From: a virus
Direction: 5' to 3' (one strand)
DNA: 24,594 nucleotides
IMG/VR virus record: IMGVR_UViG_3300035034_001546
Location: 1 to 24,594 of that record
Position 1 is the first letter of the stretch, and each line of letters starts with the position of its first letter. Made by a program: the position numbers and the translations under genes. Below are positions 11,894 to 23,430 of the stretch, piece after piece. The notes beneath the pieces are model-generated. The model saw nothing but the letters and a program-made list of their open reading frames with translations, made no database searches and was not told where the DNA came from.

Positions 11894-12331
11894 CTATTTC
11901 TTCGATTTTCCGTAGAACGGGTCACTTCCAAATCGAAAGGCCCAGAGAGGGCATTGGGTTTCCGCACACTCGGTTACGCCTTTGCGCCCGCCTGTGCAGA
12001 TTACGCAAAATGCTGTGATTGCAGTTGCGCGTCCCTTGATCCGGTTGCGGTAACGTTGCTCCTGCGGATTTTTATCATCGTAAGGAGTCCGCAAGGCGGT
12101 GAACCTGTCCTTTACCGTCATGTGGTCGTCGGGGGTATCGCCATGCTTGGCAGCTAACTGGCCGAACCTTAACAGCAGGCTTCGCGGTGCGCTATCGCCA
12201 TACACGGCGTTTAAGGCGCTATTGTCAGGGACCGGAGTTTTGGGTTTCGCCACTATATGTAATTTCCCGTCTGACGGTGTTTCAAAAACGGCATCCTTGG
12301 ACGGTATAGCTGATCTGCGTTTGATGGGCAT
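11894..12331 (-). CDS. Four-cysteine phage protein, paralogue 1 (145 aa)
   Basis: The protein starts MPIKRRSAIPSK and ends with a compact cysteine module: C109-x2-C112-x9-C122-x4-C127 followed by PLWAFRFGSDPFYG. I recognise this module (CxxC ... C ... CPLxxFRxGxxP) from small uncharacterised phage proteins in many hosts; it probably binds one zinc ion, but its role is unknown to me. The same module, at about 50% identity by eye, ends the gene two places upstream (paralogue 2). The N-terminal half differs between the two. The ATG directly follows the upstream stop, with GGAG eight bases before it. Confidence 0.78.
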   Translation of the reverse strand: MPIKRRSAIPSKDAVFETPSDGKLHIVAKPKTPVPDNSALNAVYGDSAPRSLLLRFGQLAAKHGDTPDDHMTVKDRFTALRTPYDDKNPQEQRYRNRIKGRATAITAFCVICTGGRKGVTECAETQCPLWAFRFGSDPFYGKSKK

Positions 12332-12646
12332 TCAATAGGCTCCGGGGCATGATGGGCCACCTGTGCATCCCATGTAACCGCCGCAACGTTTACATGGCTT
12401 TCTGGGAAGCCCAAGTTTGGGTTTTACTGTGTTTGGCTTGGCTTTCTTAATTCTTAAAATTACAGCTTCGCTGCATTCTATCTTGAGGGCAATTTTATGC
12501 AGATCGTCTAAATTACATATGGGCGCAATACAGAACATGTTTGATTTCAAGAGAGAAATTTCCTCTTCAAGTAACGCAATTAGCCAATTAGCTTGGTAAG
12601 CGGGGAACTTGACATTGTACCTAATCGACATTTGCATCGCCGTCAT
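12332..12646 (-). CDS. Hypothetical protein with zinc-ribbon-like C-terminus, about 100 aa
   Basis: Unrecognised protein between the two four-cysteine paralogues. Residues 15-65 look helical (ANWLIALLEEEISLLKSN), followed by a basic linker and a C-terminal cysteine knuckle, C85-x2-C88-x5-C94-x5-C100, rich in glycine. Three in-frame ATGs (12646, 12637, 12631) all overlap the 3' end of the upstream gene and none has a strong ribosome site, so the start is uncertain and translation is probably coupled. The longest form is given. The MSIRYN start at 12631 is about as likely. Confidence 0.68.
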   Translation of the reverse strand: MTAMQMSIRYNVKFPAYQANWLIALLEEEISLLKSNMFCIAPICNLDDLHKIALKIECSEAVILRIKKAKPNTVKPKLGLPRKPCKRCGGYMGCTGGPSCPGAY

Positions 12647-13130
12647 CGTCGTCGCCGTCCTCGAAAAGATCGGGTCCGTCTTCGTCTGCTATTTCGATAA
12701 CAACAGTAGGAGGCGGTAGCCAGCCCCGCAGCGGGTCTTTTCCCATGCGGAACGGATGGAGTGGGCAAGTAATTGACGCGCAGTCTTTGACGGCAGCTAC
12801 TACACCGCCCTGACACATTACGCACATAGCGCGGATGGAGGTAGCGCGGCTGCTGATACGCGCTCGATACTTGTTAATGAGCGGATCGTCCTCGACATCG
12901 GCTTCACGTATATGATCACGCAAAATGTTGAAGTCGATTTCCTTGGGATTTGCGCCTTGATATTCGACTGGAAAGTCGGCAGTATCGATGCGCTTCAACG
13001 CTCGCAGACGCTCAATACCTTCGAGTCCGTCAAGGCTCGCGTAAAGGTCGTTTAGTTTTTGCTCCAAGTCTTCGCGTATTTCCCGGCCTTCCTGACTCAA
13101 CGTTCCGCTGTAGTTTGGGGGCTGACTCAT
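12621..13130 (-). CDS. Four-cysteine phage protein, paralogue 2 (169 aa)
   Basis: The protein has a charged helical N-terminus (EGREIREDLEQKLNDLYASL), then the same module as paralogue 1: C103-x2-C106-x10-C117-x4-C122 followed by PLHPFRMGKDPLRG. The tail is very acidic (EDGDDDDGDANVD). The ATG at 13130 has a good AAGAGGT site even though it lies 101 bases inside the upstream gene, in another frame. The pair of paralogues suggests a local duplication with divergence of the flanks. A metal-binding role is inferred from the cysteines. Confidence 0.78.
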   Translation of the reverse strand: MSQPPNYSGTLSQEGREIREDLEQKLNDLYASLDGLEGIERLRALKRIDTADFPVEYQGANPKEIDFNILRDHIREADVEDDPLINKYRARISSRATSIRAMCVMCQGGVVAAVKDCASITCPLHPFRMGKDPLRGWLPPPTVVIEIADEDGPDLFEDGDDDDGDANVD

Positions 13131-13545: not shown

Positions 13546-16500
13546 TTATCCTGACTTTGGCAGACGGCGAGTCTTCATTCGGTCGATAGAACGCCGCTTT
13601 ACTGTGGCCCGTCCTGACATTGTATCTTGCACCATTTCGTCACTAGTTAGTTCTTCTAGGTGCGCAGAACTATTACCCATGCGGTGCCCATGAAGCATCA
13701 AGCCGCCTTCGCCACGGAACGTTGGTTGCTGAGTCCATGTATGCTTGCGCGTAAGCAAAAAAGTAGCTGCACCGCATACCGCGTCAGCTACGTCTTTCGA
13801 TCCTCGCGGCTTATGGTCAATCTTTTCTTTTGCCCCATTCTGAATGTACTCTAGTTCTGTCAATTCAGTAATCAAAGTAGGATTGCGGGGCAACAGTATG
13901 CGACGATCATACAGTGCATCACGCAACGAGCGGTAAGGTTGTGTCGTCCTGTCTATAGATAGGTATTCTGTGGCGTAGCCTTTCTTTCCGAGAATTTGTC
14001 TGAAATCTGCGCTTTGAAATCCGTCTGTGGTTACAACCTTGATAGGTATGCCGTGGTTGTCACGCATGTCATAGATGATAGACCTGATCTTGGCGAAGTC
14101 GATTTCACCGTCACGCGGAGGATTGATCCGCAGAACGAGGTCAAAAGCTATTACTGGTAATATTTCTACCTGTCGGTTGCCGGTAATGGGATCGATACGC
14201 TCCATGCTGCGAACGCCAGCTACGTAGCCAACGGCAAGGCCCGCACTATCTCTAGTCAATGCAAGGTCAACGTGAGCCACGCGCATAGAAGGCACGTCGT
14301 CCCTTACTCGTTCTGATATGATTACAGGTTGTGCCACTTCAAGATCAATTTCTGGATAACCTATGACAGATTGTACGTCATATTGATCCGCCAGCGCCAT
14401 GCACTCAAACAGGGCTTCTCGGTTGTGAATGAAGGGCCTAGAGGCCAGCGTAGTCAGGCCCGCAAAGTCGCGGATAGCGTCACCTACGTCCTTTTCAAAT
14501 TCAGACCGAAGATCGACAGGGACTTCGATTACTTGATCGTCAGACGTAAGTATTTCGTCATCGCGTAAAATACGCGCTCTTTGCCGTTCGTTTCCTACGA
14601 GAACCCGGAAACTTTCCGACGAGTATTTTTCCCGACCACGGCCTTCCCAGAGGGATTGGGAGAGGACGAATATTTCGGGGTCTTTGCCTCCGCACATTTC
14701 GGCTTCTGCGGCTTTGACCTCGGTAAAATCATCTGGGTAACGGGACGACGAAACCAAGAAGAGCGTTCCCGGCAACTTGCCTTGTTGCATGAAGCGGGAC
14801 CGGCGACGGCGTGACAACGTTTGATAGAGCGTTTTGGCTTGGTCATATTCACCCCCAGCTTCTGCGTTAGCATTTTTAGATTTCTTGACACGCTCCATAA
14901 AGTTCACTTCGTCAAGCATACCGCCAATGACGTTCATGGAAATTGCACCAGTATCCGACGAAGATACAGGCATGACTTGGACGCGGTGTTCACGGAAATA
15001 CATACTCGACGCAATGCGCTTGTCATAAGGATAGACTTCGTTGAAATATGGCGAGTTGTGCAGGAAGGGTCCGAGTTCGTCAAACACGGCTTTCTTGGCC
15101 GTGGACAAACGTACAGACTGAATAGTGAACACAATAGACGAATGACCTTGGATGCCAAAGGTCTGCTGCGGATTACGCATACACGAGATTTTGTAAATCT
15201 GTCTGGCTATTGATAGGTTAGCCGCCGTGGTGTTATGCGTGACGATTGTTTCACGCCCTGCAAGGTATAGGCTGGACTGGCTATCTACGGTGATGCAGCG
15301 AACCGGGACGCTTGTAATCGATTGCACGTCCACAATGTAACGAGAACGCTGACGGATAGCCTGCGCCCCAGAAGTGGGTTGCCGTTCCCGTTTACGAGCA
15401 AGACGAAACACGGGCAAAAGGTCACGATACGCAGTGAATGTGATACGGTGGTAGTTTCGTCCCTTAACGGTCTTTATGGATTGCGTGGGCTTGAGGCCAA
15501 GCAGCCACAAAAGTTGCATTACGTCATCCGAAAGTTGCTTGTTGACGAGAGTAATTTCGCATACGCCTGTCTTATTACAGGTTCCGTCAGTATCCATTAA
15601 ACCTTGAAGAAGGTCGCGCTTCTGCCGATAGCTACCAAGCAGCAGACGTTCCGGTATGTGCTTGTTGTTCAACAGCCCAGAGCGACTAAGGGCGTTATGG
15701 AACCCGTTGATGCCGCAAGTTTCAATTAAATAGGTAGGGCATTTGTCTTCGGACACGTAGTCAAGCCGACGAATACGCGCACCTGCATCCTCCATGTGTT
15801 CTATGATTTCATAATCATCGTCATGGCAGTAGAACCGGGCCTGTGCCGATGATCCGTCGCCAAGCCAACAACCTAGAACATACGGGTCGAAGTCCATACG
15901 CGCGGCTACACCGTCTACGCCGCTATGGAGCGGTACACTGTGGTTGGTGTAGCGCCCCTCCACCCAAAGCGTCGAAAGAATTTCTTCTGTGTTCTTGACT
16001 GTGCCGCTTCGCTTCGCGCAACGATCTGCACGAGTTTCCGTGTACCAAAGATGCTCTGCGTCCGCGACGAGACTTGTGCCATCCGAGAATGACACCCGGT
16101 AGCAGGGTCTATTGTAGCGAATGTCGTGCGCCGTAACTACGCGGCACGGTTGCCCGTGTTCGTCATAAACCCGGTCGCCGTCTTTGACGGTTTCCATAGT
16201 TTTCCAGCCGCGCGTGGTGAGAATGGGTGTATCTAACGAAAGCGATTTGCCAATGCCTATCGACCCCTTCAATACGGCTTCAACGTACCGCTCAGTTTCA
16301 AGCGCCTCAAGGGTCTGACGCACGGCTGGGTATAGTTCCTTTGGGTCCATGCCAAGGTAGGTATCAGAGAACAAGAATTCGTCTAACGGCACCGCGCCCC
16401 TACGATACCTAGCGAGGTCTATCATGTGCGACAGATCGCCGTCTTTTGAAACCTCTTGGATAGCGTAGGTATACTGTTCCCGCAACAAGGGGTCACTTAC

Positions 16501-16635
16501 TGAGGCTACTTCCTGCATAAGGGCTTTTACTGTGTCTGCGATAGTTATCTCGCGTTCAAGGTCTTCGGGGCTTACCGAATAGTTAGTCAACGCTTTTGGC
16601 TGCTGTCGATAGACGGATTTCAACCTTTTAGGCAC
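13546..16635 (-). CDS. Terminase large subunit containing an intein
   Basis: The precursor is 1029 aa. Removing the intein (residues 131-468) leaves a 691-aa terminase, the ATPase and nuclease that packages DNA into the prohead. The spliced Walker A reads GSIGIGKTT; without splicing it is broken. Walker B is GGMLDEVNF. The C-terminal nuclease carries the acidic motifs HVDLALTRDSAG, VTTDGFQSADF and KDVADAVCGA. An N-terminal extension of about 100 residues precedes the ATPase, longer than usual. The start is a GTG at 16635 overlapping the end of the small terminase gene, giving MPKRLKSVYRQQ. The alternative, a defective terminase, is unlikely because the intein blocks are intact. Confidence 0.92.
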   Translation of the reverse strand: MPKRLKSVYRQQPKALTNYSVSPEDLEREITIADTVKALMQEVASVSDPLLREQYTYAIQEVSKDGDLSHMIDLARYRRGAVPLDEFLFSDTYLGMDPKELYPAVRQTLEALETERYVEAVLKGSIGIGKSLSLDTPILTTRGWKTMETVKDGDRVYDEHGQPCRVVTAHDIRYNRPCYRVSFSDGTSLVADAEHLWYTETRADRCAKRSGTVKNTEEILSTLWVEGRYTNHSVPLHSGVDGVAARMDFDPYVLGCWLGDGSSAQARFYCHDDDYEIIEHMEDAGARIRRLDYVSEDKCPTYLIETCGINGFHNALSRSGLLNNKHIPERLLLGSYRQKRDLLQGLMDTDGTCNKTGVCEITLVNKQLSDDVMQLLWLLGLKPTQSIKTVKGRNYHRITFTAYRDLLPVFRLARKRERQPTSGAQAIRQRSRYIVDVQSITSVPVRCITVDSQSSLYLAGRETIVTHNTTAANLSIARQIYKISCMRNPQQTFGIQGHSSIVFTIQSVRLSTAKKAVFDELGPFLHNSPYFNEVYPYDKRIASSMYFREHRVQVMPVSSSDTGAISMNVIGGMLDEVNFMERVKKSKNANAEAGGEYDQAKTLYQTLSRRRRSRFMQQGKLPGTLFLVSSSRYPDDFTEVKAAEAEMCGGKDPEIFVLSQSLWEGRGREKYSSESFRVLVGNERQRARILRDDEILTSDDQVIEVPVDLRSEFEKDVGDAIRDFAGLTTLASRPFIHNREALFECMALADQYDVQSVIGYPEIDLEVAQPVIISERVRDDVPSMRVAHVDLALTRDSAGLAVGYVAGVRSMERIDPITGNRQVEILPVIAFDLVLRINPPRDGEIDFAKIRSIIYDMRDNHGIPIKVVTTDGFQSADFRQILGKKGYATEYLSIDRTTQPYRSLRDALYDRRILLPRNPTLITELTELEYIQNGAKEKIDHKPRGSKDVADAVCGAATFLLTRKHTWTQQPTFRGEGGLMLHGHRMGNSSAHLEELTSDEMVQDTMSGRATVKRRSIDRMKTRRLPKSG
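15232..16245 (-). mobile_element. Intein with LAGLIDADG homing endonuclease, in terminase Walker A
   Basis: Residues 131-468 of the terminase form a full-length 338-aa intein. Splicing block A is SLSLDTPILTTRGW with Ser as first residue; block B is the histidine block around DAEHLWY. The two LAGLIDADG helices are VLGCWLGDG and LLQGLMDTDG, both with the catalytic Asp. Blocks F and G are CITVDSQSSLYLAGRETIV and THN. The +1 extein residue is Thr. The insertion point is in the P-loop between Lys and Thr, a favoured site for inteins in terminases. The endonuclease looks intact, so the element may still home into intein-free relatives. Confidence 0.93.
15313..15326. repeat. Dispersed 14-bp near-palindrome, site 7 (inside the intein)
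   Basis: TGTAATCGATTGCA on the plus strand, identical to site 3, inside the intein near its C-terminus, where the minus strand encodes QSITS. Confidence 0.8.
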
Positions 16636-17284
16636 GGACTACACCTATCAAGTCCGTAACAAGAGTGGCAATAGTATTGCGCTGCTTCTCGTCTTGTTGA
16701 ATTCCCTTTAGATCATCCTTGACCGTTTCCGGGTGGTGGGAAAGATTGACATTCATGGACGTGCCTACGAGGCCGCGCAACTTGGCTAGGTCCATCACGA
16801 GGTTTCGCAATTCTTCCACTTCTCGGCGATTGTCGGCCAGTAGAACTCCGATAGACCGTTCATTCTTGAAGCCGATACCGAGCCGTGCCTGTTGCAACTT
16901 GATAAGACGCAACATTTCAAGTTCTTCGTCCAGCACTATGACGTTGCCGTCGAATAAGTGATCATAGCCAAGGGTGTTAAGCCGCACTTCCATGTCTTCG
17001 CTATCTTCGTCAACAGGAACCTGCGGCCTGCACAGATTGGGCTGGGCCTTGCGAAAATATTGCAGATAGCCGACGAATGTTTTCTGGTTCAAATCGACAT
17101 AGCCACGCATGATGGCCCATTCCGCGATCTTGCTGTTCGGTGTTCCAGCGCGGATAAGACGCAAGATCGTATCATAATGGGAGTTGTCCATTACAAACCG
17201 AACTGCCGTCCGTTGTTGACGTTCGGCAGGCGTTTCTTGGCCCTTGACGTTGACCCTGCGTTTGACGCGGCGCTTAGTTGTCAT
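16628..17284 (-). CDS. Probable terminase small subunit
   Basis: The 218-aa protein starts MTTKRRVKRRVNVKGQ and lies immediately upstream of the large terminase, overlapping it by eight bases. Residues 20-75 contain a likely helix-turn-helix region (YDTILRLIRAGTPNSKIAEWAIMRG) of the kind small terminases use to bind the packaging site. The middle (EELEMLRLIKLQQARLGIGFKNERSIGVLL, then NRREVEELRNLVMDLAKLRGL) is long-helical and suits oligomerisation. I chose the ATG at 17284 because it overlaps the upstream gene only slightly and gives the basic N-terminus seen on other genes; a longer form from 17419 would run through most of the upstream ORF. The function is inferred from position and layout. 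Confidence 0.7.
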   Translation of the reverse strand: MTTKRRVKRRVNVKGQETPAERQQRTAVRFVMDNSHYDTILRLIRAGTPNSKIAEWAIMRGYVDLNQKTFVGYLQYFRKAQPNLCRPQVPVDEDSEDMEVRLNTLGYDHLFDGNVIVLDEELEMLRLIKLQQARLGIGFKNERSIGVLLADNRREVEELRNLVMDLAKLRGLVGTSMNVNLSHHPETVKDDLKGIQQDEKQRNTIATLVTDLIGVVRA

Positions 17285-17474
17285 CTGGAAACCATTCTTC
17301 GATTGCGAGTGTCGTGACGGTCTGTTCGTGATCTGACGTATCATCGCCGGGAAGCATTGATATACTGAAACGGGCGTCTGGTTGGCCTTCCGTAGAGACC
17401 CTATAAGTGCGTTCCTCACACCCTGTTTTCTTGTTGTGCAGTACGCCTTCGAGAACCATGATTATCTGTATCAT
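17274..17474 (-). CDS. Small hypothetical protein, 66 aa
   Basis: Unrecognised 66-residue protein (MIQIIMVLEGVLHNKKTG...), strand-rich at the start and acidic at the end (EEWFPDDN). The ATG at 17474 overlaps the ParB-like gene's stop as ATGA and has GAAGG eight bases upstream; a second ATG at 17459 is possible. Its stop overlaps the start of the small terminase gene. The tight overlaps on both sides support a real, co-translated gene. No signal peptide or membrane segment is evident. Confidence 0.65.
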   Translation of the reverse strand: MIQIIMVLEGVLHNKKTGCEERTYRVSTEGQPDARFSISMLPGDDTSDHEQTVTTLAIEEWFPDDN

Positions 17475-18298
17475 TTCTTGGGCCTTCGGATAATCTTGGA
17501 TTTTTGTCCACTCTTTGTAGCAGAGCCGTTCCCTGTTGGCAACTCCGCGCCTGCTACAATCGATTGTATGTATTGCGTGTAGTTGATGTTTGCATCAGCG
17601 CAGGCTGCAATAATGTCTTTGAGTTTTTTGTCTGTCGCTTCGTCGGTCTTAAAGTAATGGTGATTACGACCGCCCCACGAGAACACCATATAACCATGAT
17701 CAAGGTCGCTTCCTGACTCTTTGAAGATTGTATTGAGAACAGACGACAAGTCGTCCATTGACTTGATGCTTTCCTTCGCCGCAGCCAGTTTCTTCTTCTG
17801 CTTGGGTGTCATGCTTTTCGCAGCCTGTTCGATCAAGGCTTCGAATTTCTTGGTATCTGTGAAGCCGATTTCCCGTTGAACAACATTGGGGTCTCGGCCC
17901 TTAGATATGTCTTTGAACAGCTTCGCCAGTTTGGCTTTGTTGAACCCACCGCGCAGTTCGTTGCGCTTGATCAACGATACCTTGAGTTCTCGGTCGGTCC
18001 ACTCTTTGACGATAGCGGGAACCTCTTGCATACCGAGCACCATTGCCGCCTTTGTACGGTGATGACCTGATCCGATTTGGTACTTGCCCTTGATCGTAGG
18101 GTGCTTGCGAACGAGGATAGGTTCATCGAAACCTTGTTCAGTCATTTCCTCGATAAGCAAATCGAAAACCTCGGGCGACATTTCATTCGGGTTGTCTTCG
18201 TCGGGGATCAGGTCTTCAACCGGGATCATGACTATTTCGACATGATCTACGGGAGTCTTGCCCTCGGGTTTTTTGACGGGACGTTTACTGATGGGCAT
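17471..18298 (-). CDS. ParB/Srx-domain protein (ParB-like nuclease fold)
   Basis: The 275-aa protein starts MPISKRPVKKPEG. Residues 20-105 are a ParB N-terminal (ParB/Srx) domain: IPVEDLIPDEDNPNEM, then EPILVRKH and the nucleotide-binding box GSGHHRTKAA at 76-85. In chromosomal ParB this fold is a CTP-dependent clamp; in phages, related proteins are often found near terminase genes with unknown roles, some as nucleases. After the domain come charged helices (KLAKLFKDI, MTPKQKKKLAAAKESIKSM) and a basic tail (KSKIIRRPKK). No canonical HTH of ParB is obvious. The ATG at 18298 has AAGGA and gives the shared N-terminus; longer forms run through the neighbouring gene. The dispersed palindrome family makes a DNA-site partner worth considering. 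Confidence 0.82.
   Translation of the reverse strand: MPISKRPVKKPEGKTPVDHVEIVMIPVEDLIPDEDNPNEMSPEVFDLLIEEMTEQGFDEPILVRKHPTIKGKYQIGSGHHRTKAAMVLGMQEVPAIVKEWTDRELKVSLIKRNELRGGFNKAKLAKLFKDISKGRDPNVVQREIGFTDTKKFEALIEQAAKSMTPKQKKKLAAAKESIKSMDDLSSVLNTIFKESGSDLDHGYMVFSWGGRNHHYFKTDEATDKKLKDIIAACADANINYTQYIQSIVAGAELPTGNGSATKSGQKSKIIRRPKK
17555..17568. repeat. Dispersed 14-bp palindrome, site 8 (perfect)
   Basis: TACAATCGATTGTA, inside the 3' part of the ParB-domain gene, where the minus strand encodes QSIVA. Confidence 0.82.
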
Positions 18299-18308
18299 GG
18301 TGTGATCC

Positions 18309-18623
18309 TTAATCGGATATGCGCAGATACAGACCAGAAGCCTGTTCTGAGGGGTTTGTGGTGATGACACGGTTGAAGGACAGGCGGACAGTTTGTCTGT
18401 CCTCGTTGAGTTTCTTGATAGCATAGAGCGCAGACCGCGTAGCACACAGATCGTGGCGTATCTCGGCAAGTAGCGATGCGCTGGTGTAAATCCCAGCGTG
18501 GCCGCTATTGATGAGTTTCATAGTCTCGTACGTGTAGAGAAAGACGGAGTTTCTTTCCGACCTTTCCATATGGGCTTCGATAGATAGCAGATCACGGGGA
18601 GTTCCCGGCAATGTGTACTTCAT
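18309..18623 (-). CDS. Hypothetical protein, 104 aa
   Basis: Unrecognised protein (MKYTLPGTPRDLLSIEAHME...). The region SLLAEIRHDLCATRSALYAIKKLNEDRQTVRL could form a helix-turn-helix-like or helical hairpin unit, but no family is evident. The ATG at 18623 overlaps the glycosyltransferase stop as ATGA, and the stop lies ten bases before the ParB-domain start, so it is a link in the same translation chain. There is no signal peptide or membrane segment. Confidence 0.7.
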   Translation of the reverse strand: MKYTLPGTPRDLLSIEAHMERSERNSVFLYTYETMKLINSGHAGIYTSASLLAEIRHDLCATRSALYAIKKLNEDRQTVRLSFNRVITTNPSEQASGLYLRISD

Positions 18624-20191
18624 GTTTTTTGCTTCCGCAGTTTGCGTTTGGGTTTGCTTGCACTTGATTGTAAGGCGTCAAATACGTCTCTTCTAACGAA
18701 CACTTCGTCGGGTCCGTTACACAGGTCCACGTATCCACAATAACGCATACTGTGATGAATAGTGCCACGGCCATAAGTCCAAGTTGCGCGGATACCCAGA
18801 TCACCCACAGAAATACCCATGCGACCGCTTTCGCGCAGGTACTCAACCACATCGCCGAATGTGTAAGTTTCACCTTTGAGTTCGGAAAGGAAACCAAGTA
18901 TCGCCCCTGATGTTTTGAATAGGGGCAAGGGACGCCGTGCCATCGTTTCGATTTCGTCAGCAATCAACGCGGTATTTTTTGGGGCATCAAAAGTCTCGCG
19001 TATCACCTGACGCCATGGTTCAATAAGTTCCCGTGCTTTTTCGGGATCATTCTTGATGTCGGTCAGGTGCATTAGCAAAGCCGCCTTGTCTGACGGCTTG
19101 ATCACAAACGGATAGTCAGGAAAGAAAGTCTTCTGGTAATCCGCCTGTGGCATGATGCAAGGGACGCCCATATATATCGCCTCCGAGAGGCCCACGGGGC
19201 AATCGAGGTGGGACATCGGGGCGATACCGCAGTGAACCGTCCGCAGCAACTTCAAAAAGGAACTTCGCGGGTTGTTCTCGATCAATTGAAATTGCGGATT
19301 GTCTGTATCGAAATTGACGCCAATTTTGGTAAGCGCGGCTGACATAGGACCACCAAGCCCGCCCGACAACGAGACTATAAGCTTTGCGTCCACGCCGGAT
19401 TTGTATAAATAGTCGAACCACGCTAGATGCTCCCTATAGCTGACGCCCATAATCCTACCAACAGATAGAACGCGGAAACCGCTTTCCACTTTCCACCTAC
19501 TTGGCTGATAGATTTTGTCGAGTTCATTGATTTCGATACCAGATGGTATGATAGAGGTCTTATCCTCTGCCCATCGCCTGATCATGCTGTTAGTGTAGAT
19601 ACCTTGCATGGCGGCTGTTACTTCGGATCGATTGTGGTCACTTATAAAGATCGACCGATCCGCCGTCAAGTAACCCTGACATTGGTTCAACCAGTAGGCA
19701 TCGCCAACGTGTTGCGCTTTTGGCGTCTGGGGGAACTCTTCGACAACCATCATGGGCAGACCGTAATGTTTGTCAGTGAACGCCCGGCCTTTGTCGTGGA
19801 AACGTGGGCTTTCCAGTGTGCGTTTCATCATGCTCGCAGCCCCGGTGCGCCCGGTAACTATGGCGTCGATATGGTACTTGCCAGCAATGCGATTAAACAT
19901 GTTGAAAAAGTCGTCTGTAACCAGACCGTCAACGATAAATTGGTCTTGAATGTATTCGGTACGGATTATCCCTACATGATCGCTTTCTTCGATGTCGTCT
20001 GGCGTATATTTGGCGTCGGGGATCATCCAGTAGACAAAATGACCACGTCTCACCAGTTCGGCAACAAGCTTGCGATACTTGTTGTAGGTCGAAGATGAGT
20101 TCAGGTTTGCCGATTGTATATAAACAAGATCGATCAGGATGCGCAGACGTGGTGCCTGCACGTCCCTGTGCTGCCACTTTGGCTCGCTCAT
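18620..20191 (-). CDS. Glycosyltransferase (GT-B fold) with extra C-terminal winged-helix-like domain
   Basis: The 523-aa protein begins MSEPKWQHRD; the ATG at 20191 overlaps the epimerase stop as ATGA. Residues 15-420 look like a two-domain GT-B transferase: RILIDLVYIQ at the first strand, a helical region with HYGLPMMVVEEFP, then FRVLSVGRIMG (second domain start) and the donor-sugar loop DCPVGLSEAIYMGVPCIMP. Residues 425-523 are an additional domain (ILGFLSELKGETYTFGDVVEYL ... GDLGIRATWTYGRGTIHHSMRYCGYV) that reads like a winged helix, then a basic tail (KPKRKLRKQKT). That combination is unusual for a cell-surface transferase. The donor is probably the product of the two upstream enzymes; the acceptor (phage DNA, virion protein or host surface sugar) cannot be read from the sequence. 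Confidence 0.82.
   Translation of the reverse strand: MSEPKWQHRDVQAPRLRILIDLVYIQSANLNSSSTYNKYRKLVAELVRRGHFVYWMIPDAKYTPDDIEESDHVGIIRTEYIQDQFIVDGLVTDDFFNMFNRIAGKYHIDAIVTGRTGAASMMKRTLESPRFHDKGRAFTDKHYGLPMMVVEEFPQTPKAQHVGDAYWLNQCQGYLTADRSIFISDHNRSEVTAAMQGIYTNSMIRRWAEDKTSIIPSGIEINELDKIYQPSRWKVESGFRVLSVGRIMGVSYREHLAWFDYLYKSGVDAKLIVSLSGGLGGPMSAALTKIGVNFDTDNPQFQLIENNPRSSFLKLLRTVHCGIAPMSHLDCPVGLSEAIYMGVPCIMPQADYQKTFFPDYPFVIKPSDKAALLMHLTDIKNDPEKARELIEPWRQVIRETFDAPKNTALIADEIETMARRPLPLFKTSGAILGFLSELKGETYTFGDVVEYLRESGRMGISVGDLGIRATWTYGRGTIHHSMRYCGYVDLCNGPDEVFVRRDVFDALQSSASKPKRKLRKQKT
18659..18672. repeat. Dispersed 14-bp near-palindrome, site 9 (one mismatch)
   Basis: TGCACTTGATTGTA on the plus strand, one base different from sites 1, 2 and 4. 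It lies at the 3' end of the glycosyltransferase gene (encoding QSSAS), 35 bases upstream of the next ATG. Confidence 0.65.
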
Positions 20192-21129
20192 GTCAGCAAC
20201 CCTGTAGGATATACCCATCCTTCGCGTAGCCCCGCCCGATGTTGGACTACACGTTCTATACCTTTACTGAAAAGGGTAGGCTCGAACGTGGAAATTTGAC
20301 GTAGACGGGTAGTGTCCGCAATCCGATTGGGAATATCTCGGTAAACCTCTCGATCATCGTAATTGTTTGGTAATACAGCGTAATGCGGTACTACAGGGTG
20401 GGAGAAAGCCGCCGCCGTCTTCATGACAACGTCCTTGAGCCGTAGAACTTCGTTCGAAGACACGTTTATAATTTCTCCGTTGTACGCCCGATGCGCGATA
20501 TGGTTTAGGTACATCGCCGCGTCCTGTGCATAAAGATAACACCGTTTGTTGTCAGGACTGCCGAACAGGTGCGGAGTCTCGCCGTTAGCGAGTTGATGCA
20601 CGATCTTTGGCACAAAGAACTGTTTTACCTGACCTAGGCCGTAACAGTTGAACATGCGAGCGATGACGATTTTCATGCCGCTGTCCTTACTGAGCAGATA
20701 GTGCTCGCTTCGCGCCTTACCCCGCGCATAAACATTGCTCCCCTTCAACGGATATGTTTCCGCCATAGGCGTGTCGTCGCCGGGGTCGCCGTACACCTCT
20801 GACGATGACGTAAATATGAAAGACTTGGCCCCGGCAAGCCGCGCAGCGGTATACGCCATCTGGGTTCCGAACTCGTTAATCTCGCGGCAAAGATCGGGAT
20901 TGTCCTCAGTGTTCTTGACACCAAGCATGGCAGCACAGTGGTAGACCCGGTCAGGTTCGAACTCAAGCATTGCTCGGTTCAGGGTAGCGCCATTGCGAAT
21001 GTCGCCTACTGTGATCGAAGCCTGTTCAGAGAACACGTCATACCCACGAACCTTGTTTCCGTTGACGGCATAGTGACGCATAAGGGCCGAGCCTAGCATT
21101 CCACTCGCACCTGTTATGAATACCTTCAT
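20188..21129 (-). CDS. NAD-dependent nucleotide-sugar epimerase/dehydratase (extended SDR)
   Basis: The 313-aa enzyme has the extended short-chain dehydrogenase layout: NAD-binding GASGMLG at 7-13, DIR at 43-45, SSSEVYGD at 108-115 and the catalytic YARGK (Tyr134, Lys138). It belongs to the UDP-glucose 4-epimerase / dTDP-glucose dehydratase superfamily. Coupled with the sugar dehydrogenase it most likely interconverts UDP-sugars or UDP-uronic acids (for example C4 epimerisation). The exact substrate is not deducible. The ATG at 21129 has AGGGGA six bases upstream and lies ten bases after the dehydrogenase stop. Length is typical. Confidence 0.88.
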   Translation of the reverse strand: MKVFITGASGMLGSALMRHYAVNGNKVRGYDVFSEQASITVGDIRNGATLNRAMLEFEPDRVYHCAAMLGVKNTEDNPDLCREINEFGTQMAYTAARLAGAKSFIFTSSSEVYGDPGDDTPMAETYPLKGSNVYARGKARSEHYLLSKDSGMKIVIARMFNCYGLGQVKQFFVPKIVHQLANGETPHLFGSPDNKRCYLYAQDAAMYLNHIAHRAYNGEIINVSSNEVLRLKDVVMKTAAAFSHPVVPHYAVLPNNYDDREVYRDIPNRIADTTRLRQISTFEPTLFSKGIERVVQHRAGLREGWVYPTGLLT

Positions 21130-21139
21130 GGTAGTTCCC

Positions 21140-22369
21140 CTAGTAATTGATGATGTTCCCGATACCAAAGAGTTGATCGGGCCTGAATTGGCACCCTACG
21201 TTATAGAAGGTACAATCTTCGGATATTGGCAGCGCATACAGGATTTGGTTATACTTTCCAGTATGGTTTATGATACCGACAACCGTTGTGAATGTGTACT
21301 CGGTATCAAGATCGCCGTCGATCAGGGGGTCGTGCAAGATACAAGGCACGTCTTCGCCTTGCAATCGATTGTAGAGGGCAATCCCGCCAGAATTTCTAGT
21401 GTCGGTTACGTCTGCCTTGTAGGATTTGCCTATTATCAGTATTGGCAGATCGTCAGCCTCATAGGTGAGCATTAGTGCAAGGCTTTCTAGATAGTCGTCG
21501 TGACACTCGCGGGAATGCAGCGGCAAAGACAGTTCATTGCGTGTGTGTGATCCGTACCATTCCGCGAGATAGTAGGGATCGACCGGGATGCAGTGACCTC
21601 CCACAAGACCCGGCATAAACTTGGGGCTGCTGGGCTTAGTCCGAAGGGCCTCTATCACATCAAGTAAGTCGATTTCTGCGGCGTTGCAGTGAATAGACAG
21701 TTCGTTCATCAAGGCGATATTCATGTCTCGCTGTGCATTTTCGAAACACTTGGCGACCTCTCCTACACGTGTATCAGAAAACACCCGAACCTTATGAAAA
21801 GCCTTGCCGTACACATCTACTATCTCTTCTTGCTGAGACGGCGACACATTATCAGAGAAGCAGATAATCTTGGTCTCGTCTGCGAGTTCGGCGTAAGAGT
21901 TTGGACCGGGGTTTACTCGTTCAGGGCTGTAAGCGATGGGATGGTGCTTTGCGCTGCCCATCATGTCCCGGCGTAGGAGTTCCGTTGTACCGGGCGCTAC
22001 TGTGCTTTCAAGCACAACGTATGATCCGTTTTTCGCCTCGAACAAGATACTGCGCATCGCAGCAAACACATAATCGTTGTCGGCTATAACGCCTTTCATG
22101 GGGTGGTATTTCACGGGCGTAGGTACGCACACGATATACATGTCAGCTTCGGGCGGCAGGGTGTTTGTCCATTCGATATGGGGGCCATAGCTTGTAAGAA
22201 CGAAGGGCGGGATCAGACCTGTGTGATCCACGCCGCTTTTTATATTTGTCAGCAGTTCAGTATTGATGTCGTAACCGGACACTCTCAGGCCAGCCTGACA
22301 AAGGCGGTGTGCGAGAGGGAAGCCGACAAAACCAAGGCCAACAACGCATACGTGAAAGACTGTTTCCAT
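21140..22369 (-). CDS. Nucleotide-sugar (UDP-hexose/HexNAc) 6-dehydrogenase
   Basis: The 409-aa enzyme oxidises a UDP-sugar C6 hydroxyl to a carboxylate in two NAD-dependent steps. It has the Rossmann motif GLGFVG at 11-16, the VCVPTP strand near 80-85, STVAPGTTE at 122-130, the lysine block AKCFENAQRDMNIALMNE (Lys207) and the catalytic cysteine in GLVGGHCIPVDPYYL (Cys260). The PVDPYYL form is typical of the UDP-HexNAc dehydrogenase branch (WbpO/TviB/WecC-like), so a UDP-N-acetylated uronic acid is a reasonable guess for the product. The ATG at 22369 has GAGG at eight bases. The final 80 residues are the UDP-binding domain, including GKSYKADVTDTRNSG. A dispersed palindrome lies inside that part. 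Confidence 0.92.
   Translation of the reverse strand: METVFHVCVVGLGFVGFPLAHRLCQAGLRVSGYDINTELLTNIKSGVDHTGLIPPFVLTSYGPHIEWTNTLPPEADMYIVCVPTPVKYHPMKGVIADNDYVFAAMRSILFEAKNGSYVVLESTVAPGTTELLRRDMMGSAKHHPIAYSPERVNPGPNSYAELADETKIICFSDNVSPSQQEEIVDVYGKAFHKVRVFSDTRVGEVAKCFENAQRDMNIALMNELSIHCNAAEIDLLDVIEALRTKPSSPKFMPGLVGGHCIPVDPYYLAEWYGSHTRNELSLPLHSRECHDDYLESLALMLTYEADDLPILIIGKSYKADVTDTRNSGGIALYNRLQGEDVPCILHDPLIDGDLDTEYTFTTVVGIINHTGKYNQILYALPISEDCTFYNVGCQFRPDQLFGIGNIINY
21360..21373. repeat. Dispersed 14-bp near-palindrome, site 10
   Basis: TGCAATCGATTGTA on the plus strand, inside the sugar dehydrogenase gene, where the minus strand encodes YNRLQ. Confidence 0.82.
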
Positions 22370-22378
22370 GGTGCGACC

Positions 22379-22774
22379 TCAACGAACGGGAAATACGTGG
22401 CACTCGCGGCCATGACTTACTGCATTAGCGATAGGTTGAACGAGGTTCATGACATAACCGTCCCAAAACATCAGCAGCATTTCTGACTGTGCCACGATCA
22501 TGTTGTTGCGGTGAGCAAACCCTTCGGGCGTCTGGGAGTTCGGACTGATTGTGCGGATGCTAATGTCGTTTTCACCCGCCCACTTGATCAGTTCTTCCTC
22601 TACGCCTTTTCCGCCGCCCGTAACAAGACTGTAGTGGGAAAAATTTCTGGCTTTTGCGTACCCAGATACGCACTCGCCTATGTAGCTTCGGTTGGAGTAT
22701 ATTTTTCCTTTGAAATCTCGGATACCGATAACGCCAATAATGGCTGGGGTAGGGGTAGGTTTAGATGACGCCAT
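22379..22774 (-). CDS. SLOG-fold protein (DUF2493/YspA-like)
   Basis: The 131-aa protein has a Rossmann-like SLOG pattern: IIGVIGIRDF strand, the nucleotide-binding TGGGKGVEE at 52-60, then WAGENDISIRTI, the RNN block FAHRNNMIV and the sugar/nucleotide pocket MLLMFWDG near 100-106. SLOG proteins bind nucleotides or nucleotide-derived ligands; related families include DprA, LOG cytokinin-activating hydrolases and nucleotide-sensing domains. It is the first gene of the sugar operon, nine bases from the dehydrogenase gene, so it might process or sense a nucleotide related to that pathway. The ATG at 22774 with GAGG upstream is preferred to a GTG at 22813, which would overlap the promoter-like -10. 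Confidence 0.78.
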   Translation of the reverse strand: MASSKPTPTPAIIGVIGIRDFKGKIYSNRSYIGECVSGYAKARNFSHYSLVTGGGKGVEEELIKWAGENDISIRTISPNSQTPEGFAHRNNMIVAQSEMLLMFWDGYVMNLVQPIANAVSHGRECHVFPVR

Positions 22775-22842: not shown

Positions 22843-23430
22843 TCAGCTAATCGTTGTAAAATCCCCTTCAATAATGTCGTCGGCTGTGGCCCGTTTTTCC
22901 CCCGGCTTTAGAATTGAAACGCTGCCGTTAGGGGCGTTCGTGGGGCGGCTGTAGGTGTCGGGGTGAGGGGCGGTAAGTGTGAGCCGCTTGCGTTGTATGG
23001 TGGTGCTATGGGGGGCCGTTGACGGCGCTCCGACGACCGAGGCCCGCGCCCCGTAGTTGCCGTTACAATCGATTGTAAGTTCGACTTCGATTTGCACCCG
23101 GTCTAGAGGCGAGGCACCCGTCTTGCGTTCTGTTGCGGCCAGTGTCTTCGACAGAACGCCCGAACGACCCGCCCTACGCGCAGGAGGTTCCCAGATATAG
23201 CCTTCGTCAATGAGTTCCTTAACACGAGCAGTCGCGGTAGAGGATTTCATTCCGAGTTGACGGGAAACCTCGTCGCGGATACAGCCGGGGTTGCCTTCGA
23301 TAAATGCGTATACATCATATCTCTGGCCCTGCAATTGAGGGTGGCGGGCTTGATTGGTCGCCCCCTCCGTTCGATCCTCCGTCGCCTGCGTCTTGGGGTC
23401 CGGTAGTATTGATCGGCGTTTGATCGGCAT
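22843..23430 (-). CDS. Winged-helix DNA-binding protein, MPIKRR N-terminus
   Basis: The 195-aa protein starts MPIKRRSILPDP with AGAAGG eight bases upstream. Residues 38-80 form a winged helix-turn-helix: RYDVYAFIEGNPGCIRDEVS, then the recognition helix SSTATARVKELIDEGYI and a wing. This is similar in layout to the DNA-binding domains of MarR/LexA-like regulators. The C-terminal half is probably partly disordered, with strands LDRVQIEVELTI, and ends acidic. It could be a regulator or a packaging/replication accessory protein. The gene starts 116 bases inside the upstream ORF in another frame. A perfect copy of the dispersed palindrome lies inside it, so autoregulation through that site is a possible but unproved idea. 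Confidence 0.75.
   Translation of the reverse strand: MPIKRRSILPDPKTQATEDRTEGATNQARHPQLQGQRYDVYAFIEGNPGCIRDEVSRQLGMKSSTATARVKELIDEGYIWEPPARRAGRSGVLSKTLAATERKTGASPLDRVQIEVELTIDCNGNYGARASVVGAPSTAPHSTTIQRKRLTLTAPHPDTYSRPTNAPNGSVSILKPGEKRATADDIIEGDFTTIS
23064..23077. repeat. Dispersed 14-bp palindrome, site 11 (perfect)
   Basis: TACAATCGATTGTA, inside the winged-helix gene, where the minus strand encodes LTIDCN. Confidence 0.82.

Follow-up and report, generated by a model that had tools for sequence, protein, structure and literature searches.

A glycosyltransferase with a conserved winged-helix-like C-terminal domain is a core gene next to ParB and terminase in a phage lineage and may act on a phage macromolecule near packaging

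Phage glycosyltransferases (GTs) for DNA, for the capsid and for the host surface are already known, and they are usually classed as accessory genes serving DNA protection, seroconversion or capsid decoration. The closest described counterparts of the system reported here are gp21 of the RcF-cluster phages RcDurkin and RcTiptonus and gp4 of Agrobacterium phage JP1, which share one GT with a distinctive C-terminal domain and the order SLOG, GT, ParB, terminase small subunit (TerS) and terminase large subunit (TerL). A further counterpart is the gp102 module of the Delepquintavirus phages DLP3 and DLP5 (also RcZahn, RHph_Y1_11 and KarBoss), where a GT with a related C-terminal end is followed by ParB, a TerS-like gene and TerL, with sugar-tailoring genes directly upstream. 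We analysed IMG/VR virus record IMGVR_UViG_3300035034_001546 (positions 1 to 24,594; this whole 24.6-kb stretch, a genome fragment, is referred to as the window), in which such a module is read on the minus strand. In RcDurkin, RcTiptonus and JP1, unlike in the window, SLOG and the GT are not separated by dehydrogenase and SDR genes, and the DLP3/DLP5-type module uses PIG-L, SDR, DegT aminotransferase and methyltransferase genes as donor genes, its GT being only distantly related.

The GT gene of the window (18620-20191, minus strand), a core gene of the phage lineage, encodes a predicted GT4-type GT-B glycosyltransferase of 523 residues. The start at 20191 is most likely the true one, because relatives begin there and it forms an ATGA overlap with the SDR stop codon; the alternative 532-residue reading from 20218 adds nine residues that are missing in relatives. 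The structural model contains the two Rossmann-like domains of the GT-B fold and matched many GT4 enzymes (Foldseek E = 3.6e-12, TM 0.66-0.72 over the target), with BshA, MshA, PglA and WaaG in the match list, and full-length structural matches to Arthrobacter phage GTs reached E = 1.8e-20, compared with approximately 1e-11 for other viral GTs. Curated family scores were under threshold (PF00534, 15.5 bits against 26.4, E = 0.012; NF041876, 30.9 against 400), and we regard the protein as at most a divergent GT4 member by sequence and as GT4-type by fold. In order on the minus strand, the genes of the region encode a helix-turn-helix (HTH) protein, SLOG, the dehydrogenase, the SDR, the GT, a small open reading frame (ORF), ParB, another small ORF, a TerS-like protein and TerL, and downstream of TerL lie portal, protease, major capsid and tail genes, whose homologues were named via relatives. 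From SLOG to ParB, neighbouring genes either share 4 nt (ATGA) or sit 9-10 nt apart: the gaps are 9 nt between SLOG and dehydrogenase and 10 nt between dehydrogenase and SDR, the SDR and GT overlap by 4 nt, the GT end (18620) makes a further ATGA overlap with a 104-residue ORF, and 10 nt separate this ORF from ParB; the TerS-like and TerL genes overlap by 8 nt. The tight operon of SLOG, dehydrogenase, epimerase-type SDR and GT that an earlier sequence-only reading had proposed is borne out by this spacing.

Close relatives were gathered with GT-derived sequence patterns in two scans of IMG/VR (some contigs being represented twice), from which 25 loci were read, and a wider set was gathered by searches with ParB and the DLP3 GT. 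In every related locus read (the 25 IMG/VR loci, RcDurkin and JP1), the GT is followed on the same strand by its constant partner ParB, in the window a ParB-N domain protein of 275 residues (17471-18298, minus strand; PF02195, 3e-12; phrog_26387, 6.1e-45), and TerL comes next in the close clade wherever the contig extends that far. Within this clade identity is 67-78% for the GT, 45-65% for ParB and 25-43% for SLOG. The cultured groups with a close GT are RcDurkin/RcTiptonus/RcMenchie/RcKickapoo (70% identity to RcDurkin) and JP1 (57%). A pattern-based search of 84,980 bacterial and archaeal genomes returned a single relative, located on a phage-like contig binned with a Rickettsiales metagenome-assembled genome, and there too ParB follows the GT on the same strand.

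The wider set comprises Stenotrophomonas phages DLP_3, DLP_5 (DLP3 and DLP5 elsewhere in this text) and Summit, Rhizobium phages RHph_Y1_11 and TM16, Vibrio phages KarBoss and PG28, Rhodobacter phage RcZahn, and Arthrobacter phages KellEzio, Kitkat and DanielleIgnace. In the regions read, a divergent GT of similar length lies upstream of ParB, and in the proteobacterial members a TerS-like gene and TerL come after ParB, so that the order matches in DLP_3, RHph_Y1_11, PG28, KarBoss and RcZahn (in RcZahn it runs across the record start). Homology of these distant GTs was supported by phmmer (1e-4 to 1e-7), by profile comparison (97.5%, E = 5.1e-12) and by the full-length structural matches of the window GT to the Arthrobacter phage GTs. 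The GT is also among the core proteins common to RcDurkin, JP1, DLP3, RcZahn and KarBoss, beside terminase, portal, capsid, polymerase and recombination genes. Within the module it is thus the GT that is constant and not the sugar operon, and the link to packaging genes proved much stronger than the sequence alone could reveal, the order being kept across phages of several host phyla. As a separate observation, KellEzio gp84 (L042:1486-2991), which carries a hypothetical-protein annotation, looks from its sequence like a second glycosyltransferase whose C-terminal end is similar.

The C-terminal domain of the GT (18671-18919, minus strand; residues 434-516 of the 532-residue reading) had a mean column conservation of 0.84, compared with 0.79-0.83 for the catalytic part, and its D74 and C76 were invariant across 22 sequences. 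An AlphaFold2 model built from 22 sequences (pLDDT 76.7) ordered its elements as alpha, beta, alpha, alpha, beta, beta, alpha, and the loop ahead of the third helix was of low confidence; the winged-helix topology H1-S1-H2-H3-S2-S3 is present in this model, with structural matches all at E >= 0.15. The nearest PDB structures were mostly winged helices (FOXO1, Fur, FOXN1, Rv0081, DpnI and BlaI), and searches of Pfam and PDB sequences gave no significant match. Since the best structural E value was only 0.15, the winged-helix assignment is plausible, not proven. The domain core is slightly acidic (9 K/R, 11 D/E). It is followed by a basic tail (18623-18670, minus strand) with 7 K/R and no D/E in 16 residues, whose mean conservation is 0.39 and which is missing in L017, L033, L035 and L036; a role of this tail as a DNA anchor was therefore rejected as a conserved feature. 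Given the composition of the core and the unconserved tail, DNA binding by the C-terminal domain would be possible and is not indicated by charge. Structure prediction of this end had been suggested as a check on the proposed winged helix with a basic tail, and its outcome was mixed: conservation, winged-helix element order and mostly winged-helix nearest structures spoke for the domain, while no match fell below E = 0.15 and the basic tail was not a conserved part. At L033:11533-11925, an HNH-like ORF comes after the GT and the region closes with a copy of residues 488-521 from the C terminus of the GT, which looks as though insertion of a homing endonuclease had duplicated the gene end.

The donor-sugar genes form an optional cassette. 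The first encodes a nucleotide-sugar 6-dehydrogenase of 409 residues (21140-22369, minus strand), which scored above the TIGR03026 cut-off (223.5 bits against 189.8) and at 125-142 bits with WecC/TviB-type models, compared with 29-63 bits for UDP-glucose dehydrogenases; its best solved relative is Cap5O (PDB match, 4e-35), and the catalytic Cys260 is intact within GGHCIPVDP. By subfamily score and catalytic residue alike, the enzyme is assigned as an N-acetylhexosamine (HexNAc) 6-dehydrogenase of the WecC/TviB/Cap5O type. The second encodes an SDR-family nucleotide-sugar epimerase, dehydratase or decarboxylase of 313 residues (20188-21129, minus strand; PF01370, 8e-38; phrog_540, 1.7e-52), with PDB matches to 6vlo (9.4e-22) and to a UDP-glucuronate decarboxylase (~1e-13) and with intact motifs (YxxxK at 134, SEVYGDP at 110). 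It scores about equally against 4,6-dehydratases, epimerases and UDP-glucuronate decarboxylases, and the sequence does not single out the reaction of the second step. From the HexNAc-type dehydrogenase scores and the SDR matches, the pathway probably yields a HexNAc-uronic acid or a compound derived from it, and the UDP-HexNAc-uronic type of donor that had been put forward is supported.

Both cassette genes occur in the window and in L010, the dehydrogenase alone in L028 and L030 (L030 begins inside it), and the SDR alone in L016. RcDurkin, JP1 and the rest of the relatives read carry neither gene. On every contig that covers the position, the cassette lies between SLOG and the GT. Most relatives lack these genes, so they are not essential to the system, and the sugar operon was rejected as its heart. 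On the GT tree the cassette labels cluster with three changes, the fewest possible, which fits either adaptation of the GT to its donor or a single gain followed by losses; the idea of free swapping of donor genes was softened in view of this clustering, as one gain could have sufficed. More distant phages carry other genes at the cassette position, namely PIG-L deacetylase, SDR, DegT aminotransferase and methyltransferase in DLP3 and RcZahn, WbqC-like proteins in PG28, and a radical SAM protein and further GTs in L038. In this last, distant relative (L038:8994-14686), the radical SAM protein, three glycosyltransferases and a methyltransferase come directly before ParB, the TerS-like gene and TerL, and the C-terminal end of the third glycosyltransferase resembles the tail domain of the window GT. 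The cassette SDR of DLP3 (gp97, L041) was detected by mass spectrometry with 52 peptide-spectrum matches in virion ghost preparations, which may be contamination (PMC7326821).

We tentatively explain these arrangements by a packaging-linked glycosylation module whose sugar would go to a phage protein, either in the head or bound to DNA. The constant enzyme would be the GT4-type GT-B glycosyltransferase with its fused winged-helix-like domain, made in a single late-type operon with ParB, TerS and TerL. Most relatives would use a nucleotide sugar of the host; in the window it would be a phage-made HexNAc-uronic derivative produced by the dehydrogenase and then the SDR. The sugar would be moved onto a phage macromolecule present at packaging, more probably a virion or DNA-bound phage protein than DNA bases, and the C-terminal domain would dock the GT on its target. 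The sequence data directly show the gene order, the enzyme families, the unbroken active-site motifs of dehydrogenase and SDR, the conservation of the GT, of its C-terminal domain, of ParB and of TerL, and the optional nature of the donor genes; GT activity, the docking or DNA-binding role of this domain and the phage-protein acceptor are what we infer, with a phage protein slightly favoured over DNA as the acceptor. The clustering of cassette labels on the GT tree would be expected if GT and donor match, and a precedent exists in mycobacteriophages with GTs, whose capsids are glycosylated according to work cited in PMC11256854. Several points weigh against a protein acceptor. The winged-helix-like domain and the ParB neighbour point towards DNA, ParB-N domains being frequent companions of DNA-modifying enzymes (PMC12783734). 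In addition, DLP3 DNA was reportedly cut by 0 of 15 enzymes (PMC7326821) and DLP5 DNA by 4 of 36 (PMC5834331).

The strongest competing explanation, although a doubtful one, is that the winged-helix domain, perhaps together with ParB, directs the GT to phage DNA, which the enzyme glycosylates before packaging to block restriction. ParB and terminase as constant neighbours, the winged-helix-like domain and the poor digestion of DLP3 and DLP5 DNA would be accounted for, and varied donor genes would fit evasion of modification-dependent restriction, while the non-basic core of the C-terminal domain speaks against it. Known DNA glycosylation, of the T4 or TET type, requires a hydroxyl handle on the base. 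This requirement is described in PMC12783734, and a thymidylate-synthase-type hydroxymethylase (PF00303) was found in none of 19 module-bearing records (nine complete phage genomes among them, the window itself being a fragment), while the T4, SPO1, M6 and PhiW-14 controls were positive. TET (PF12851) gave no match in 13 records, in a search without a positive control, and no C5-methylase (PF00145) was present in the complete genomes of RcDurkin, JP1, DLP3, RHph_Y1_11, PG28, KarBoss and RcZahn; the IMG/VR record behind L036 does carry C5-cytosine methylases. No base-modifying enzyme emerged when 58 RcDurkin proteins, most of them uncharacterised, were compared with Pfam. Among the core proteins of RcDurkin, JP1, DLP3, RcZahn and KarBoss there was no obvious candidate for a shared base-activating enzyme, one protein remaining: a 431-residue core protein of unassigned function (phrog_17202; RcDurkin 67668-68963, L005:22668-23963) that adjoins RuvC and is core in RcDurkin, JP1, DLP3 and KarBoss. 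The gene immediately following TerL in DLP3, gp107 (L041:9342-10235), encodes a divergent ThyX (phrog_85, 1.5e-70; PF02511, 7e-07), which is absent in RcDurkin and JP1 and was thus set aside as a general handle enzyme. With the required enzymes not found in complete relatives, DNA glycosylation via the T4 route was rejected, and the TET route was considered unlikely.

Palindrome usage and restriction data bear on the same question. Six-base palindromes had an observed-to-expected ratio (O/E) of 0.44 in the window, with 34 of 64 absent, and 0.36-0.61 in five complete relatives, compared with 0.94 in T4 and 0.79 in SPO1 and PhiW-14. Such avoidance suggests DNA exposed to restriction, as a leaning only, because the modified phage M6 shows it too (0.46); RcSimone-Hastad, with no module in the 50 kb read and a DNA modification state that is not established, had 0.89, and palindrome avoidance was dropped as a decisive test. 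In the DLP3 genome, 10 of the 15 enzymes used had no site, and absence of sites alone explains those failures, which weakens the restriction resistance as clean proof of DNA modification; sites were present for SmaI (68), ClaI (18), EcoRI (7), NdeI (4) and XbaI (1). True DNA modification in DLP3 is possible, and its link to the GT would be conjecture. For the Vibrio members, no restriction digests were reported in the literature searched. Collectively, the glycosylation of DNA raised by the earlier reading was not supported for any known route, given the missing hydroxymethylase and, in the genomes tested, C5-methylase, the avoided palindromes and the unconserved basic tail. As no known base handle is encoded, attachment to DNA would need new chemistry or an unrecognised enzyme. 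A hydroxymethylation-free version, in which a GT4 enzyme with a built-in winged helix glycosylates DNA just before packaging, either directly or via an unrecognised base-activating enzyme and with optional donor cassettes, in phages of Alphaproteobacteria, Stenotrophomonas, Vibrio and Arthrobacter, appears unlikely.

Still less probable is a counter-defence role in which a BshA/MshA-like GT would modify a host signalling nucleotide or metabolite and SLOG would sense or handle a related nucleotide. BshA and MshA, which glycosylate small molecules, are among the closest solved folds, PIG-L deacetylase neighbours occur in other lineages, as in the bacillithiol pathway, and a weak GT4-conflict match of the DLP3 GT and the SLOG neighbour would also fit; however, the conserved C-terminal domain and the fixed place beside ParB and terminase would be left unexplained, and SLOG had no similarity match in L035, L036 and L038 and is not annotated in the DLP3 module. 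Host surface modification (seroconversion) is very improbable, as the sequence-only reading had also suggested: the GT4 family includes lipopolysaccharide (LPS) enzymes such as WaaG, which is in the match list, and the DLP3 authors, who noted the GT, proposed LPS modification from an RfaB domain match (PMC7326821), but no flippase, GtrA/GtrB or membrane partner was recognised in the operon, the enzyme would be soluble with a nucleic-acid-type tail, its gene belongs to the core set and stays with the packaging genes in phages of unrelated hosts, and the one relative that the pattern-based search found among the 84,980 bacterial and archaeal genomes is itself on a phage-like contig.

The remaining genes of the region were characterised as follows. 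A winged-HTH protein of 195 residues (22843-23430, minus strand, from the ATG at 23430; PF13412, 5.8e-07) is the conserved upstream neighbour of the module, with tblastn matches in most close-clade relatives and also in L035 and L036. The putative SLOG-family protein (YspA/DprA-like, 131 residues; 22379-22774, minus strand) had a PF10686 score under the cut-off (0.0023; 18.2 bits against 28.2), while the best member in RcDurkin reached 7.2e-12; the homologue is annotated as DprA-like in RcDurkin and JP1, and the gene is conserved immediately upstream of the GT or of its sugar cassette. The 104-residue ORF between GT and ParB (18309-18623, minus strand) had tblastn matches in L008, L009 and L013 and no family match in profile searches. 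The putative TerS of 218 residues (16628-17284, minus strand), conserved between ParB and TerL, is named by position only and had no domain match in profile searches. PADLOC gave no defence-system match for the GT, SLOG or sugar genes and matched only ParB, to the ParB-like part of type II methyltransferase models. TerL (13546-16635, minus strand; phrog_36964, 1.5e-36; LAGLIDADG_3) contains an in-frame intein of 338 residues with a LAGLIDADG-type domain (residues 131-468; window 15232-16245), inserted exactly within the Walker A motif (junction GSIGIGK^TTAAN); it is patchy and missing from most relatives, being present in RcDurkin, L010 and L019 and absent in L008, L009 and L011-L017. A short basic tag, MPI(K/S/V)KR, opens unrelated minus-strand proteins starting at 23430 (HTH), 18298 (ParB) and 13476, 12331 and 11882 (three small ORFs); starts of this type numbered 4 in L014, 5 in L016 and 4 in L031, with none in the stretch of RcDurkin searched, and the tag could be a targeting or translation signal. 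The adjacent ORFs at 12621-13130 and 11894-12331 are paralogous, each matching the other's homologues in relatives.

Compared with enzymes of established function, the window GT is close in fold to the GT4 enzymes BshA, MshA and PglA, which are within its closest solved folds and have UDP-HexNAc donors. These enzymes act on small-molecule or lipid acceptors and, to our knowledge, have no C-terminal winged-helix-like domain. The GT-B fold is also common to the T4 alpha- and beta-glucosyltransferases (1y6f, E = 8.2e-09), a generic likeness that ranks behind many other GT4 enzymes, and T4 encodes a hydroxymethylase that was not found in genomes with the module. In the literature searched we found no description of a GT with such a tail as a core gene tied to ParB and terminase and with an optional donor cassette. 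Phage-coded GTs are also the point of likeness to virion glycosylation in the mycobacteriophages Che8 and Rita, for which covalent capsid glycans are reported as cited in PMC11256854. In contrast to the accessory standing of most phage glycosyltransferases, this GT type belongs to the core genes, carries a conserved winged-helix-like domain and is tied to ParB and terminase in phages of very different hosts. Cultured phages (RcDurkin, JP1 and DLP3) carry the module, so the sugar-bearing molecule and its role in packaging or restriction escape are directly testable; a DNA acceptor would imply new chemistry, and a protein acceptor would make glycosylation a core step close to packaging.

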